Source: Armatimonadota bacterium
Lineage (GTDB): Bacteria > Armatimonadota > DTGP01 > JAKQQT01
Assembly (NCBI GenBank): GCA_036504095.1
Contig: DASXVS010000071.1
Coordinates: 248,001 to 312,000 of the forward strand
Direction: 5' to 3'
Length of the DNA stretch: 64,000 bases
The notes beneath the pieces were generated by a model that was not told the origin of the DNA, did no database searches, and saw only the letters and a program-made list of their open reading frames with translations. Below, piece by piece: positions 14,383 through 61,073 of this stretch. A program made the position numbers and the translations under genes. The first letter of the stretch is position 1, and every line of letters begins with the position of its first letter.

Positions 14383-14490
14383 GAGCGCATCACCCGGCCA
14401 CTCCTCCGCGGAATCTGAACAAATTCCACTTCACACGCTATTCTTACGGATGCCGGAACGCACAGGTTGCGGCAGACCGGGGGGAACCGC

Positions 14491-17400
14491 GTGGAGCAGG
14501 AGCATCATCCGAAGCCTATTTTCTATGACGAGCGCGGTCGCCGATGGCCCGCGATTCTGCGTGCGTGGGCGATGCTGGCGCTGGTTCTGTCGGTTCTGTC
14601 TGCCGTTTTCATGGCGACAATCATCGGGGCCCCTCCGCTCCGCGCGCTGAAACTCCCCGCCCCGGGGTTTATCCCCGACCCTCAGAGGCCGCCGTCGGTT
14701 GTCGGCGCCAGGGTCAAAGAGCAGACGCGGTACGCGCTCGCCCTGAAGATGACGCGCAGTAAGGCCGCGCTGGAACGCCACATGCGCGCGCACCGGGCCC
14801 TGACGGCGGCTCCCCTAGTCCGCGCGAGGGACCGAAAACCTCTTTCGGTGGTGGCGGGGTTCTACGTGAACTGGGATGCCACTTCGTATGCATCGCTCAC
14901 GCAAAACGCCCGTGCGCTGACGCACCTGATGCCCGAATGGCTTCACCTGGGCAAGGACGGATCGACATTCCGAACGGAGGAGTCGAAGAAGGTCATCGAT
15001 TTCTGCGATAAGCACAACCTCCCGATCCTTCCACTCCTCAACAACGTGGACGCGGGCGACTTCGAGCCGGATCGAATCCACAAACTCCTGGTCTCGGACG
15101 CCGCCCAGGCCAAACTTGCACAGGGCATCGTTGCGTACCTTAAGAAGCATAAGTTCAAGGGGCTCAACCTCGATATCGAAGGTGCGGCTGATGCCGATCG
15201 CGACTTGATGTCCGGGTTCGTCTACAGCCTGGCCGATGCGCTGCACGCCAACAGACTGCTTCTTTCGATGGACGTGCCGTTGGAGGAGCAGGCGTATGAC
15301 CTCGCCGCGCTCGGCGACGCTTGCGATTTCATCGTGCCGATGCTGTACGATCAGCACGATGCCACAGGAACTGCGGGGCCGATCGCGGGACAGGATTGGT
15401 TTGAGGCGAAAGCGAAGGAGATCTATACCCTCGTGCCGCCCAATAAGGTGGTCCTCGGCCTAGGATCATACGGGTATGACTGGCGCAACGGCCAACCGAC
15501 CGCGCACAGCATGACGTACGAAGAGGCTGTCGTGACGGCGCGCGACGAGGAAGCGAAGATCGCGTTCGATGAGAACTCGCTTAACCCGCACTACGCATAC
15601 ACGGACGATCGGGGCGCGCCGCACAGCGTCTGGTTCCTTGATGCGGTCACGATGTACAACAACCTGCGCAGCCAGCGCGAGGCGAAGCCGCTGGGCGCCG
15701 CTCTATGGGTGCTTGGGAGTGAGGATCCCAGCGTCTGGTCGTTCTTCCGTCGAGACAAACTGGCCACTAATACCGACTCGCGCGGGCTCCGGGCGATATC
15801 GTTCGAGGAGGAGGTCGACACCGAAGGCTTGGGCGAAATCCTGAGCATCGCTTCTCAGCCGGCCGATGGCTATCGGGATATTTCGACAGATCCAACGGGC
15901 TATATCCGCACCGAGCGGTATGTGAAATACCCGTCCCCGTATCTGATTCGGCTGCGCGGGGGGGATCAGCGCAAATCGATAGCGCTGACGTTTGACGACG
16001 GGCCGGACCCGAGGTGGACCCCGAAAATCCTGGACATCCTCCAGCATTATCACGTGCCGGCCACATTCTTCGTTCAGGGCGCGCAAGCGGAACAACACCC
16101 CGACCTCGTGCGCCGTGAGTATGCCGAAGGGCACGAGATCGGCAATCACACCTTCTACCACCCCGATCTGAGCATCGCCAGCCCGACGCGAGTGCGCCTG
16201 GAACTGGATGCAACCCAACGGGCGATCCAGCACCTGACGGGACATTCCACCGAACTATTCCGCGCGCCGTATTCCGTTGACACCACACCGACCAAGGCCA
16301 GCGAGATCAGGCCGCTTCTGACCGCTCAGGCTCTGGGATACGTTACGGTGGGTGCGAATATCGACCCCAACGACTGGGCGCGGCCGGGCGTTAAAGCCAT
16401 CCTCTACGGCGGCAATCCCGCCCCCGGAGCGGAGAAAGACGTTGAAACGATCGACGGCGTCCTCACGACTGCGGTGCTGGGGCTGCAGCCGAACGCGGAT
16501 TCCATGCACATCGTACTCCTGCACGATTACGGCGGAGACCGAACGCAGACCATCCAGGCTCTGCCGCACATCATCGAAGGTCTCCGCGCCGAGGGGTTCA
16601 CTTTCACGACCGTGAGCGGCCTGATGGGCCAGTCTCGCGATGCGGTCATGCCGCCGGTCTCAGGCCGGGACATCCAACTGGTGGGTGTGGACTCATTTGT
16701 GTTCGACCTGATATTCGGGTCCAAATCGGCGCTTCAATGGGTGTTCTACCTCACTCTGCTGCTCGGGGTATCCCGCGTGCTTTTTACCGCGGCATTCGCC
16801 CTCGTCCAGGCGCGCCGCGCGCGTCGGGAGGTATTCGACCCTCGATACCATCCCAAGGTTTCCGTTGTTATCGCGGCGTACAACGAAGCGGAAGTCATCG
16901 AGCGCACCGTTCAGGCAATTTTGGGCTCTGACTATGACGACGTTGAGATCATCGTCGTTGACGATGGCTCAATAGACGACACTTCCGCAGTCGTTCACCG
17001 CGCGTTTCAGCACGAACCGCGTGTTACCTTGCTTCGCAAGGATAATGGCGGGAAGGCCGGCGCCTTGAACACAGGCCTCGACTATGCTCGTGGCGAGATA
17101 GCGATTGGCCTGGATGCAGACACGTTGTTCGCGCCAAACACTATCTCGCTTCTGGTGCGCCATTTCCACGACCCCCGCGTTGCGGCCGTTGCCGGAAATG
17201 TGAAGGTCGGAAATCGCGTGAACCTGTGGACGCTGTGGCAGAGCCTTGAGTATATTGCGAGCCAGAACTTCGACCGCCGCGCGTATGCGGCGCTGAACTG
17301 CATCACGGTGGTGCCGGGCGCCATCGGCGCCTGGCGGCGAAGCGTGATTCTTGAGGCCGGTGGCTACCTGGCGGACACGCTGGCGGAGGACACGGACCTG

Positions 17401-17922
17401 ACGCTGCGTGTGCGAAGACTGGGGTACGTGCTCAAGACGGAAAACGATGCCCTCGCATATACCGAAGCGCCAGACAACGTGCGCGCTTTGGCCAAGCAGA
17501 GGTTCCGCTGGGCGTTCGGCACCCTCCAATGCCTGTGGAAACATCGCAAGGTGTTGTTCCGGCGCAAGTACGGAGCGCTGGGGTTCGTTGCGCTGCCCAC
17601 ACTCTGGCTGTTCCAGATGGTGTTCCAGGCCGTCTCGCCGGTGGTGGACCTGATGATCCTCGTCGCGATCTGGAGCGGAAACTTTCCCACCGTCCTGTTC
17701 TATTACGGCTTGTTCTTCTTCGTGGACCTGATCGGCGCTGCGATGGCCGTGTGGTTGGACGATGAGGACTGGCGCCTGCTGCTCTGGATGTTCTGGCAGC
17801 GGTTTGTCTACCGCCAGGTGATGTACTACGTGATCTTCCGCAGCGTCATGGCCGCGTTCCGGGGGCACCACGTCGGATGGGGGAAACTCCAGCGCAAAGG
17901 GACGGCGACCGCGGCGCGGTAG
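14491..17922 (+). CDS. GH18-like / polysaccharide deacetylase / GT2 synthase fusion
   Basis: One polypeptide of about 1140 aa with three enzyme modules. After an N-terminal membrane segment (about residues 20-45) comes a GH18-like barrel with LNLDIEG (D228, E230). A NodB-type CE4 deacetylase follows with LTFDDGPD (D502, D503) and the zinc motif HTFYH (H553, H557). A membrane helix at about 750-770 leads to a processive family 2 glycosyltransferase starting near 788 (VSVVIAAYNE, VDDGS, DAD, EDTD, QRFRW at 1003), then C-terminal membrane helices. The topology places GH18 and CE4 outside and GT2 inside. It probably makes, trims and de-N-acetylates a beta-linked GlcNAc-type polymer. GTG at 14491 has a GGGGGGAA ribosome site; TTG at 14467 is an alternative. 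Confidence 0.9.
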   Translation: MEQEHHPKPIFYDERGRRWPAILRAWAMLALVLSVLSAVFMATIIGAPPLRALKLPAPGFIPDPQRPPSVVGARVKEQTRYALALKMTRSKAALERHMRAHRALTAAPLVRARDRKPLSVVAGFYVNWDATSYASLTQNARALTHLMPEWLHLGKDGSTFRTEESKKVIDFCDKHNLPILPLLNNVDAGDFEPDRIHKLLVSDAAQAKLAQGIVAYLKKHKFKGLNLDIEGAADADRDLMSGFVYSLADALHANRLLLSMDVPLEEQAYDLAALGDACDFIVPMLYDQHDATGTAGPIAGQDWFEAKAKEIYTLVPPNKVVLGLGSYGYDWRNGQPTAHSMTYEEAVVTARDEEAKIAFDENSLNPHYAYTDDRGAPHSVWFLDAVTMYNNLRSQREAKPLGAALWVLGSEDPSVWSFFRRDKLATNTDSRGLRAISFEEEVDTEGLGEILSIASQPADGYRDISTDPTGYIRTERYVKYPSPYLIRLRGGDQRKSIALTFDDGPDPRWTPKILDILQHYHVPATFFVQGAQAEQHPDLVRREYAEGHEIGNHTFYHPDLSIASPTRVRLELDATQRAIQHLTGHSTELFRAPYSVDTTPTKASEIRPLLTAQALGYVTVGANIDPNDWARPGVKAILYGGNPAPGAEKDVETIDGVLTTAVLGLQPNADSMHIVLLHDYGGDRTQTIQALPHIIEGLRAEGFTFTTVSGLMGQSRDAVMPPVSGRDIQLVGVDSFVFDLIFGSKSALQWVFYLTLLLGVSRVLFTAAFALVQARRARREVFDPRYHPKVSVVIAAYNEAEVIERTVQAILGSDYDDVEIIVVDDGSIDDTSAVVHRAFQHEPRVTLLRKDNGGKAGALNTGLDYARGEIAIGLDADTLFAPNTISLLVRHFHDPRVAAVAGNVKVGNRVNLWTLWQSLEYIASQNFDRRAYAALNCITVVPGAIGAWRRSVILEAGGYLADTLAEDTDLTLRVRRLGYVLKTENDALAYTEAPDNVRALAKQRFRWAFGTLQCLWKHRKVLFRRKYGALGFVALPTLWLFQMVFQAVSPVVDLMILVAIWSGNFPTVLFYYGLFFFVDLIGAAMAVWLDDEDWRLLLWMFWQRFVYRQVMYYVIFRSVMAAFRGHHVGWGKLQRKGTATAAR

Positions 17923-17974: not shown

Positions 17975-18064
17975 TGGCGGAGAGAGTGGGATTCGAACCC
18001 ACGGTAGAGTTACCCCTACAACGGTTTTCGAGACCGTCTCCTTGAACCGCTCGGACATCTCTCC
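17975..18064 (-). tRNA. tRNA-Ser(CGA), CCA encoded
   Basis: The minus strand folds as a class II tRNA. The acceptor GGAGAGA pairs perfectly with TCTCTCC and the D-arm follows TGTCCGAG. The anticodon arm ACGGT-CTCGAAA-ACCGT gives anticodon CGA (reads UCG). The long variable arm is TAGGGGTAACTCTA and the T-arm is GTGGG-TTCGAAT-CCCAC. The discriminator is G, and CCA is encoded at 17975-17977. It lies between two plus-strand genes on the opposite strand. Confidence 0.97.
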
Positions 18065-25111: not shown

Positions 25112-25393
25112 CTAAGATAGGACGGGGTCTCGCCGGAAAGGCGTTCGGTCGTTGATGGACAGAACGGTGACGTGCGGCGCCCGATGGGATGGGCGGAGCC
25201 TTCCCCCGTTGGAGTCCATGCCCGCCGCCCACTGCTCCAATTCCCAACGTCCGACGAGCCGATGCTCGTCTCGCCCGGCGCGATACAAGACGATCGTCGG
25301 AAGGCTCCCACTGCAAATGGCGTCGTGGATCGCTGCGGGGGCCACGCCCTTCAGCTCTGCGGCTTCGTCAATCGTAAGGTAACGGTTTGCCAT
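25112..25393 (-). CDS. Excisionase-like small helix-turn-helix protein
   Basis: A 93-aa protein from ATG 25393, with AGAGGA upstream. The N-terminal half is a MerR/excisionase-type HTH: YLTIDEAAELKGVAPAAIHD, then a turn and CSGSLPTIVLYRAG, then a wing-like RLVGRWELEQW. This is the HTH_17 pattern of phage and plasmid excisionases, though transcription regulators also use it. The longer reading frame upstream runs through the tRNA-Sec gene and is not coding. Its position on the 3' side of tRNA-Sec, next to an endolysin-like gene, suggests a relic of a mobile element. No integrase is nearby. Confidence 0.7.
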   Translation of the reverse strand: MANRYLTIDEAAELKGVAPAAIHDAICSGSLPTIVLYRAGRDEHRLVGRWELEQWAAGMDSNGGRLRPSHRAPHVTVLSINDRTPFRRDPVLS

Positions 25394-25543
25394 GCCCGTA
25401 ATCCTCTGCTGCCAAAAAGTGTTACACCGTGCAAGCTGAATATCGGAGCTATGACGGCGCCTCTTTAGGGTGGCGGCGGATAGACTGAACAAATGGAGGC
25501 CTTTGGACCGTCTGGACATGTGGGAGGCGCGCGCCGGCGGGAT

Positions 25544-25641
25544 TGGCGGGAGCGTGTGGGAATCGAACCCACCCAGGACGGCGTAACCGCCCCGGACACG
25601 GTTTTGAAGACCGCCCGGGCCACCAGACCCGATCCGCCCCC
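25544..25641 (-). tRNA. selC: tRNA-Sec (anticodon UCA), selenocysteine tRNA
   Basis: The minus strand folds as a bacterial selenocysteine tRNA. The 8-nt acceptor GGGGGCGG faces ACGCTCCC, with one G-T wobble and one terminal G-A mismatch. The D-stem is 6 bp long with a 4-nt loop (CGGGTC-TGGT-GGCCCG). The anticodon arm GCGGT-CTTCAAA-ACCGT has anticodon TCA at 25605-25607. The variable arm is long and the T-arm is GTGGG-TTCGATT-CCCAC. The discriminator is G, with CCA encoded at 25544-25546. The 8-bp acceptor, the extended D-stem and the UCA anticodon together separate it from Ser and suppressor tRNAs. No selA, selB or selD lies in the window. Confidence 0.93.
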
Positions 25642-25714
25642 GTTTACATACGAAACCATAGCACAACGTGTAAGCCAGGCGCTCTCACTGACAACGCGGT
25701 CTTCGCGCGCTCGC

Positions 25715-25738: not shown

Positions 25739-26917
25739 ATGACAGTTGAACCGCCTACCGGCACGAATTCCGCCCCGTTCGCTCAAGCTTCGCCGGCTGT
25801 TCCCGCCGTCGCGGAAACCCGTTTCCGGGTTGACGACCTTTTGCGCGAACTCGTGTCTCGCGACGCGAGCGACCTGCACCTGCGCGTCGGTGAGCCGCCC
25901 GTGATGCGAGTCCACGGTGACCTGATTCGAACCACCTATCCGGCTCTCACCCCCGAAGATACCGAGGCGATCGCGGACCAGCTTCTCAACGAGGAGCGCC
26001 GGAAGCGATATGATGAATTCCTGGAGGCGGACCTCAGTTACAGCATCCCCGGCGTGTCCCGATTCCGCGTGAATTTCTTCCGCCAGCGGGGCCACGTGGG
26101 CGCCGTGATGCGGGCCATCCCCATCAAGATTAAGACCATTGACGATCTCGGCTTGCCGCAAGTGACCAAGGATTTGTCCCTTCGCCCGCGCGGATTGGTA
26201 CTGGTTACCGGGCCGACAGGGTCCGGCAAATCCACGTCGCTCGCGGCGATGATCCACCACATCAACACCCTGACGCGCAAGCACATCATCACCGTCGAGG
26301 ACCCCATCGAGTTCCTGCATAACGACATCAATTGCGCGGTCGAACAGCGCGAACTGGGAATGGACACCCACTCGTTCAACGAGGCCCTGAAACACGTGCT
26401 GCGCCAGAATCCGGATGTCATCCTCGTTGGTGAGATGCGCGACCTTGAGACGATATCGCTGGCCATCACCGCGGCGGAAACCGGCCACCTCGTGTTCGCG
26501 ACATTGCATACAACGGACGCCCCGCAGACCGTTGACCGGGTCATTGACGTATTCTCGCCGGACCAGCAGCAGCAAATCCGCATGCAGTTGTCGGTCACGC
26601 TCCTGGCCGTTATCTCGCAAACCCTTATGCCGCGAGCCGACGAATCGGGGCGCGTTGCGGCGTTCGAGGTGATGGTTTGCACTCCGGCTATCCGGGCCCT
26701 GATCCGGGAGGGCAAGACGCACCAGTTGTACACCGACATCCAGACCGGCTCCGAACACGGAATGATCAGCCTGGACCAGTACCTGCTGGATCTCGTCCGC
26801 AACCGGGTGATCAAGTACGAGGACGCCCTCGCAAAGTCGAGCAACCCGAAGGACTTCGAGCAGCGTGCCCAGAAGATGATGGCGGAGATGAGTGCGACCC
26901 ACGGGGTGCGCCGCTAA
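25739..26917 (+). CDS. PilT-family ATPase 2
   Basis: Twitching-motility-type ATPase, 392 aa. A Pro/Ala-rich N-terminal extension of about 25 residues is followed by the PAS-like N-domain (ELVSRDASDLHLRVG). The RecA-like core has Walker A VTGPTGSGKSTSLAAMI, Asp box VEDPIEFLH, Walker B DVILVGEMRDLETI and His box AETGHLVFATLHTTDA. The retraction-linked motif AIRALIREGKTHQ is retained. It is the first of two tandem pilT genes, with 49 nt between them. It would energise retraction of type IV pili or a related filament at the inner membrane. No PilB, PilC or pilin gene is in the window. Confidence 0.94.
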   Translation: MTVEPPTGTNSAPFAQASPAVPAVAETRFRVDDLLRELVSRDASDLHLRVGEPPVMRVHGDLIRTTYPALTPEDTEAIADQLLNEERRKRYDEFLEADLSYSIPGVSRFRVNFFRQRGHVGAVMRAIPIKIKTIDDLGLPQVTKDLSLRPRGLVLVTGPTGSGKSTSLAAMIHHINTLTRKHIITVEDPIEFLHNDINCAVEQRELGMDTHSFNEALKHVLRQNPDVILVGEMRDLETISLAITAAETGHLVFATLHTTDAPQTVDRVIDVFSPDQQQQIRMQLSVTLLAVISQTLMPRADESGRVAAFEVMVCTPAIRALIREGKTHQLYTDIQTGSEHGMISLDQYLLDLVRNRVIKYEDALAKSSNPKDFEQRAQKMMAEMSATHGVRR

Positions 26918-58848: not shown

Positions 58849-59168
58849 CATCCCGTCTTGCGAGTGCTGTTCATTACTTATAACACAACACGGGGGGCCC
58901 TTGCAAAGCACCGTGGGACAAGTCTGATGCTTTGGGTGTGAGGTTGGTTTGCGGGGGGCCGCGTCGAAAGCGATCGCGCGGTCGCCGCGTGGGAAGGTGG
59001 TCTTTCGGTCTTGCCTGGTCTAAAATCAGAACTGGCCACTTGGTGCTCTTTGGGAAGCACAGGTGTGTTCTGTCGGCAGTGCGGAGCGCCCACGCCTTGA
59101 CAGCGTGGTCGCGGGTTCGCGCGCCTCGCAGCATGCCCCGCATTTTTCTCGGGGAAAGGTATCATCCA
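58849..59168. other. Intergenic region, 320 bp
   Basis: Between the divergent cimA leader and the SGNH hydrolase gene. It has a TATAAG-like element on the minus strand around 58880 and several GC-rich stems, but I see no tRNA, known riboswitch or ORF that I can support. A purine-rich GGGGAAAGG at 59151-59159 belongs to the SGNH gene's start. Confidence 0.5.
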
Positions 59169-61073
59169 TTGAGTTCGATATTTCGCGTAAGACTGTGTTA
59201 CATTCTGGCCTGTGTTCTGTTAGCCGGCGCCCCGTCCGTCGCGGATGCGGCGAAGACGTCCGGTTTGATCGTTGTCGTATTGGGATCGTCAACGGCCTGG
59301 GGTGCTGGGGCGACGCCGATCACTCAGGCGTGGTCCTACCGGTACGGGGCCTATCTTCAGGGGCTCGATCCTAGCAATCGATTTATCAACCTCGCCGTGT
59401 CGGGCTACACCACCTACCACGTTCTGCCGACTGGAACCCCGCCTCTCACAGGGCGGCCCTCTCCCGATCCACAGCACAATATCACTGCAGCCCTGGCCCT
59501 CCACCCGGACGCGGTGATCGTGAATCTTCCTTCCAACGATACGTCGATGGGGTTTTCGGCCGCCGAGCAGGAGGCCAACTACAGAACCATTGCCCGGGTG
59601 GCGGGTGAGGCGAACGTTCCGATCTGGATCGCCACATCCCAGCCCCGCAATATGACGCTGATTATGCGAAACACCCAGAAGGAAGTGCGCGATTGGATTC
59701 GCATGATTTACGGTCAGCGGTCGGTCGATTTCTGGACAACCGTCGCGCGGCCCGACGGCACTATCGCCTCGGGCTATGACAGTGGAGATGGCATTCATTT
59801 GAACAATGCCGGGCACGACGTTCTGTACCGCCGCGTCATCGCGGCGGGCATACCGGAACTGCTCGCACGAACCACAACCACGGCGGTGAACGATCCCTAT
59901 GGCGACCTGGACGGAGATGGAGCGGTTACCGACGCCGATGTCGCCCTGATGACCAGGTACCTGGCCGATCCGACGCAGCTCACCGCGGCGCAGCAGGATC
60001 GCATTCGTCGGTATGGTGACGTAGCCAATGTCGTGAACCAGACAACCATCGGCAACGGGGTCGTCGACTCAAACGACACGATGAGGCTGCTGCTGCTCTC
60101 CGGCGGACAGATCGACGCCGGCACCGCCGGGCCTGTTCGTCAGGACTATGGCGATGTGAATGGCGACGGCCACGTAGACATCGTCGATGCCCTCCTCGTC
60201 AGCCGATCCATGGCCGGGCTGGTGACGGACCCGGCCATCCTCGAACGAATCCACACGCGCGGCCTTGGTGACGTCTCGCCAACGGTGCCGTCCGTGACCT
60301 TCGGAGACGGTACAATCGACTCGAAGGATCTCACGGTCCTCACGGCGCGGGCGGCCGGCAACGATGCCAACCCGCCGGCCTACGTGGACTATTGGCCGCT
60401 GCACGTCGCCGATCCGGCCGCACCGCTGATCAAACCCGACCTCGTGGTGGCAACGGACATCTCGGGCCTCACCGGTGACGCTAACCATCAGGTGCGCTTT
60501 GTCACGGATGCCGTGGAAGAGCGTCGCGGCTACACCGTGACGAGGATTGCCGGAAGCGACGGCAGCGTTCTCGCCGCATTCAAGGGGATCGACGGCAGCA
60601 TTTACGCCCTCTACGTGGATTATCCGCAGGCGTTCGGTGACCACCGCCTCGAATTCATGTCCCCATTGAAACTCCTGGACGCGTCCGCCGCTCGCGGGCC
60701 CGCAGCGCCCTGGGCGGCAAGCACCACGGGGGCATTTTCCGGCATTCCTTCGCAGTCCGTGATCGCAACGGGAACGGTTCTGGACCGCGCTGACCACTAT
60801 ACGCCCGCGGCAGGGGACTTTACGATCGTCGCGCCCGGTTCGACCTGGTCAAAGGCGGTGCGCGCGCGCCTCGACATCGCGCTGTTGCGCGGTGACTGGG
60901 GCACGATGGACATGCAGCAGGCGTTCTTCTATGAGTTTGCGCCGTTCATCGGGGTGGTCGAGCGCGCGCAGTCGCCGTACCGTGGCAGCCTAGCCGCAGC
61001 AACGGACCGCCCGGACCTCGTTGTCAACGAGATCACCTCCAGAGGCATCCAGTACACCCGCACTGCGCCGTAG
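59169..61073 (+). CDS. SGNH/GDSL-type hydrolase with dockerin-like repeats
   Basis: Exported protein of 634 aa from TTG 59169, with GGGGAAAGG before it; an ATG at 59133 is an alternative. After a signal peptide (YILACVLLAGAPSVADA) comes an SGNH esterase/lipase domain. Its block I is VVVLGSSTAWGAG (Ser nucleophile region, GSS in place of GDS), block III is NLPSNDTS and block V is DGIHLNNAGH with the catalytic Asp and His. Two EF-hand-like, dockerin-type calcium repeats follow (YGDLDGDGAVTDADVALMTR, YGDVNGDGHVDIVDALLV, and a third FGDGTIDSKDL). The C-terminal region is beta-rich. It probably acts on an extracellular ester or glycan, anchored by dockerin-like contacts. Confidence 0.85.
   Translation: MSSIFRVRLCYILACVLLAGAPSVADAAKTSGLIVVVLGSSTAWGAGATPITQAWSYRYGAYLQGLDPSNRFINLAVSGYTTYHVLPTGTPPLTGRPSPDPQHNITAALALHPDAVIVNLPSNDTSMGFSAAEQEANYRTIARVAGEANVPIWIATSQPRNMTLIMRNTQKEVRDWIRMIYGQRSVDFWTTVARPDGTIASGYDSGDGIHLNNAGHDVLYRRVIAAGIPELLARTTTTAVNDPYGDLDGDGAVTDADVALMTRYLADPTQLTAAQQDRIRRYGDVANVVNQTTIGNGVVDSNDTMRLLLLSGGQIDAGTAGPVRQDYGDVNGDGHVDIVDALLVSRSMAGLVTDPAILERIHTRGLGDVSPTVPSVTFGDGTIDSKDLTVLTARAAGNDANPPAYVDYWPLHVADPAAPLIKPDLVVATDISGLTGDANHQVRFVTDAVEERRGYTVTRIAGSDGSVLAAFKGIDGSIYALYVDYPQAFGDHRLEFMSPLKLLDASAARGPAAPWAASTTGAFSGIPSQSVIATGTVLDRADHYTPAAGDFTIVAPGSTWSKAVRARLDIALLRGDWGTMDMQQAFFYEFAPFIGVVERAQSPYRGSLAAATDRPDLVVNEITSRGIQYTRTAP

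Follow-up and report, generated by a model that had tools for sequence, protein, structure and literature searches.

The window analysed here is a 64,000-nucleotide stretch of an Armatimonadota genome assembly (GenBank GCA_036504095.1, contig DASXVS010000071.1, positions 248,001 to 312,000 of the forward strand), and it carries on its minus strand a gene for selenocysteine tRNA (tRNA-Sec), selC (Table 1). A preliminary description of this DNA, made from the sequence without database searches, had placed a tRNA-Sec gene at 25544-25641, named no strand, and proposed a covariance-model search as a check. Both tools that we applied bear out the assignment: ARAGORN called tRNA-SeC(tca) over exactly this interval, and the Rfam model of bacterial tRNA-Sec, RF01852, matched it over its full length (model positions 1-91) with 74.2 bits (E = 2.4e-13), compared with a gathering cut-off of 47 bits. 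The cloverleaf contains a D-stem of 6 bp with a D-loop of 4 nt, the anticodon UCA, a long variable arm and a T-stem of 5 bp, so that the 6-bp D-stem, anticodon and long variable arm given in the preliminary description are all seen; in each of these features, as well as in G73 and acceptor strands of 8 nt, the gene is like the bacterial tRNA-Sec represented by RF01852. Its folding energy of −56.3 kcal/mol corresponds to a z-score of −3.45 against dinucleotide shuffles, indicating a fold stabler than that of the shuffled sequences.

Table 1 Coordinates of the tRNA-Sec gene, its parts and related features (window positions unless another locus is named)
Feature	Position	Strand	Description	Basis
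selC (tRNA-Sec gene)	25544..25641	minus	98 nt, encoded CCA counted; UCA anticodon	ARAGORN, Rfam RF01852, cloverleaf
tRNA-Sec acceptor 5' strand, GGGGGCGG	25634..25641	minus	8 nt; paired at positions 1-7, G·A at position 8	
tRNA-Sec acceptor 3' strand	25548..25555	minus	8 nt	
tRNA-Sec discriminator G73 and encoded CCA	25544..25547	minus		sequence, cloverleaf
tRNA-Ser(CGA) gene	17975..18064		called as a separate gene	ARAGORN
Peroxiredoxin-like UGA gene	G000:C24:191611-192177 (= L157 1423-1989)	minus	motif UPYC	PF00578, 92.8 bits

selC is found upstream of a T2SSE-family (PilT-like) ATPase gene at 25739 that is transcribed divergently from it, and a search for sigma-70 promoters and terminators near the tRNA-Sec gene gave no match. 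An open reading frame on the minus strand (25112-25666) overlaps the tRNA-Sec gene in its long form and shows a weak match to the excisionase-type HTH_17 domain (24.7 bits, under the cut-off); because the HTH part begins near 25380, the true gene is probably shorter. Elsewhere in the window we observed two multidomain plus-strand frames. One, of 1151 residues (14467-17922), combines a GH18-like domain, a polysaccharide deacetylase and a family 2 glycosyltransferase; the other (58932-61073) joins a GDSL lipase domain to dockerin type I repeats, and dockerins outside cellulosome producers may merit attention.

The acceptor is the part of the molecule that differs from RF01852. Where the preliminary description had reported an 8-nt acceptor stem, both strands are indeed 8 nt long, but only seven pairs form, and the eighth position opposes G to A instead of forming a base pair. 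The acceptor and T-stem of this tRNA therefore add up to 12 standard pairs, compared with 13 in the 8/5 fold; bacterial tRNA-Sec with 12 pairs is already known (PMC5330540). Across 72 scored tRNA-Sec loci of Armatimonadota, a sample made up partly of top-scoring matches, the eighth acceptor pair was non-standard in 58, mostly as G·A, while the same position was non-standard in 6 of 18 classified loci from other phyla. On this comparison of sequences we regard the eighth-pair mismatch as a recurring variation that is commoner in Armatimonadota.

We considered whether the gene might instead encode tRNA-Ser or a suppressor of opal (UGA) codons. Both the UCA anticodon and the long variable arm would be possible in a suppressor derived from tRNA-Ser, and in almost every genome searched the Sec model also matches tRNAs of other kinds. 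Nevertheless, the full-length match at 74.2 bits, the 6-bp D-stem with its 4-nt D-loop and the 8-nt acceptor strands speak for tRNA-Sec, and a tRNA-Ser(CGA) was called separately in the same window. In addition, the genome encodes both selA and selB, and selA co-occurs with tRNA-Sec throughout the phylum, as described below. Taken with this evidence, a serine or suppressor identity is very improbable.

If the gene is tRNA-Sec, the proteins that serve it should be sought in the genome as a whole, as the preliminary description had recommended after noting that selA, selB and selD are absent from the window. All three sit on other contigs of the source genome (4.68 Mb in 80 contigs, 98.6% complete). 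We found a single selA (485.7 bits, cut-off 267.9), one selB above its cut-off (367.1 bits versus 242.25) and one selD above its cut-off (372.9 bits versus 125), each an intact open frame, and the encoded SelB contains the GTPase domain, the beta-barrel and two SelB winged-helix domains. The genome thus resembles other bacteria with a SelA/SelB/SelD system in that all three proteins exceed curated cut-offs, and differs in two respects: selA, selB, selC and selD are each on a different contig, four in all, and no sel operon was observed; and SelD is the Cys form (APCGGCASK), with Cys where some bacteria have Sec. Neither of the outcomes that the preliminary description had named as contrary to its reading, a covariance-model assignment to tRNA-Ser or a suppressor and a genome lacking selA and selB, was observed. 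In a tree of SelA proteins, the sequence from this genome joined that of a sister genome, G059, with a support of 99, and the pair was placed near Chloroflexota with a support of 93 (unstarred); we claim no transfer on this basis.

We next turn to possible clients of this machinery. Among ten matches to PF00578 (AhpC/TSA) in the source genome, exactly one contains an internal TGA (Table 1). With this codon read as Sec, the gene encodes a protein of 189 residues with the motif FYRGVW-U-PYC, in which UGA replaces the first active-site Cys of WCPYC; an AGGAGG ribosome-binding site stands ahead of the ATG, and the plain list of open reading frames divides the gene into two fragments. A family of Prx-like thiol:disulfide oxidoreductase selenoproteins (PF00578, UxxC) is listed in Table 1 of PMC13188914. 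The protein found here is like that family in its PF00578 domain and active-site UPYC, and differs from it in a signal-like N-terminus and in its best NCBIfam match, NF040769 (SelL-related), which at 58.3 bits lies below the cut-off of 120. The protein is probably exported. Judged from its sequence, this PF00578 protein with a UxxC motif is likely to be a selenoprotein, giving the Sec system of the source genome at least one predicted client.

Homologues of the gene were then compared across 291 Armatimonadota genomes, with close homologues defined by an E-value of at most 1e-30. Close homologues in six genomes (G019, G053, G055, G083, G084 and G123; 41-54% identity) have TGA at exactly the same codon, while those in three others (G016, G017 and G080) have TGT or TGC at the equivalent position; more distant homologues in G006, G208 and G226 again have UGA at this codon. 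At the level of close homologues, selA was detected in 6 of the 7 UGA genomes and in 0 of the 3 Cys genomes, the one exception being 73% complete. UGA-bearing genomes in which selA was not detected comprise G053, G006 and G209, which are 72-88% complete. When all 79 genomes with a peroxiredoxin match were included, the association was moderate, with selA in 13 of 16 genomes with TGA versus 31 of 63 others (p = 0.026), the position of the TGA codon having been checked in 10 of the 16.

The sequence following the UGA was examined for a hairpin. In the source-genome gene, a stem of 7 bp (CTGGCCC/GGGCCGG) with the loop AGUU starts 18 nt past the UGA. The same register is fully paired, with differing bases, in G019, G006 and G208, and other UGA homologues have a stem in a slightly shifted register with a loop that is mostly GGU or GGA. 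A search for the best stem returned a hairpin with G within the first two loop positions in 10 of 10 UGA homologues. As groups, UGA homologues exceeded Cys homologues in stem quality (p = 1e-4, for rows that are related to each other), whereas for single genes the fraction of synonymous recodings that matched the hairpin ranged from 1 to 61% (21% for the source genome) and most single genes were non-significant. The post-UGA hairpin is compatible with a SECIS element, short of proof.

Two further genomes are of interest with respect to this family. G005 (L184) has a Cys-form peroxiredoxin and no detected selA, yet a strong hairpin persists where a SECIS would lie, which may possibly reflect a recent Sec-to-Cys change. 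G059, which represents a sister genus, carries both tRNA-Sec and selA (L227, L228), and a peroxiredoxin search at an E-value of 1e-10 gave no match in it; other selenoproteins are therefore to be expected in that family.

Other known client families were also searched in the source genome. The most common selenoprotein is formate dehydrogenase; a search for it gave four PF00384 matches, which correspond to NuoG, a NuoG/HoxU-like protein (two matches) and an ActB-like protein, and none has an internal UGA. The CMD/AhpD (PF02627), thioredoxin (PF00085) and SelW-like (PF10262) families likewise contained no UGA-containing gene. The failure to find a formate dehydrogenase, SelW-like or CMD-like selenoprotein, along with a SelD of the Cys form, leaves few known clients, as would be anticipated if tRNA-Sec and the sel genes persisted as a relic in a genome that makes no selenoprotein. 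Such decay is difficult to reconcile with sel genes that are all intact, and with a peroxiredoxin-like gene whose UGA is kept at one codon across several genera, and we consider it highly unlikely. Reassignment of UGA throughout the genome, with the UCA-anticodon tRNA reading UGA as part of an alternative code, has a negligible probability: the codon serves LeuRS, RsmH, a penicillin-binding protein and selA as an ordinary stop and so is not generally reassigned, and internal UGA is absent from nearly all matches searched.

We conclude, with a probability of about 0.96, that the gene is selC, encoding a bacterial tRNA-Sec that serves as adaptor in a complete selenocysteine system with SelA, SelB and SelD. 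The preliminary description had reasoned from the tRNA that the organism decodes UGA as Sec, and this view gains support from a genome with selA, selB and selD together with a peroxiredoxin-like gene that has UGA at a conserved Cys position. By analogy with the known bacterial pathway, SerRS would charge tRNA-Sec with serine, SelD would make selenophosphate, and SelA would use it to turn Ser into Sec; SelB would then bring Sec-tRNA to UGA codons followed by a hairpin within the coding region. Charging, conversion of Ser to Sec, recoding of UGA and the redox function of the client are all transferred from that pathway. We regard this as an ordinary, standard bacterial Sec system, for which nothing mechanistically new is needed.

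To place the system within its phylum, we counted tRNA-Sec as present at 60 bits or more in the 291 Armatimonadota genomes. By this threshold tRNA-Sec occurs in 143 genomes and selA in 141, about half in either case, and the two coincide closely: 133 genomes have both, 10 have only the tRNA, 8 have only selA and 140 have neither. The genomes matched to Fimbriimonas ginsengisoli Gsoil 348 and Chthonomonas calidirosea T49 score 73.7 and 64.8 bits, respectively, for tRNA-Sec, and both have selA. The assignment of the genome set to Armatimonadota is backed by G246, whose SelA is identical to that of a named member of the phylum; a comparison of LeuRS with named genomes did not by itself assign the phylum. 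The preliminary description had held selenocysteine use to be poorly documented in this phylum, and our literature search agrees, yet the trait is evidently common. We found no literature linking selenocysteine with Armatimonadota or C. calidirosea in a search of freely accessible article text; within the literature searched, Armatimonadetes and selenoprotein appeared together only in a single paper, on Planctomycetes. The F. ginsengisoli genome paper describes a tRNA complement that covers each of the 20 amino acids and leaves selenium unmentioned (PMC4072686). According to a large survey (PMC5029168), almost every bacterial phylum includes selenium users, so the presence of selenium use in Armatimonadota is expected and unsurprising.

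Extending these observations to the phylum, we give roughly even odds to a broader proposal: that Sec decoding is widespread and overlooked in Armatimonadota, occurring in about half of the species and in two cultivated type strains, that it operates partly through Sec-containing peroxiredoxins, and that the tRNA-Sec acceptor usually lacks a canonical eighth pair. If this is true, SelA and SelB of the lineage would have to be adapted to such an acceptor. Because gene callers split UGA-containing genes in two, the annotation of Armatimonadota selenoproteins is probably faulty, and this possibly extends to the genomes matched to F. ginsengisoli and C. calidirosea. The analysis documents both the trait and a candidate selenoprotein for a phylum in which Sec use is apparently undescribed; it places Armatimonadota among the Sec-decoding phyla, with cultivated strains available for testing.
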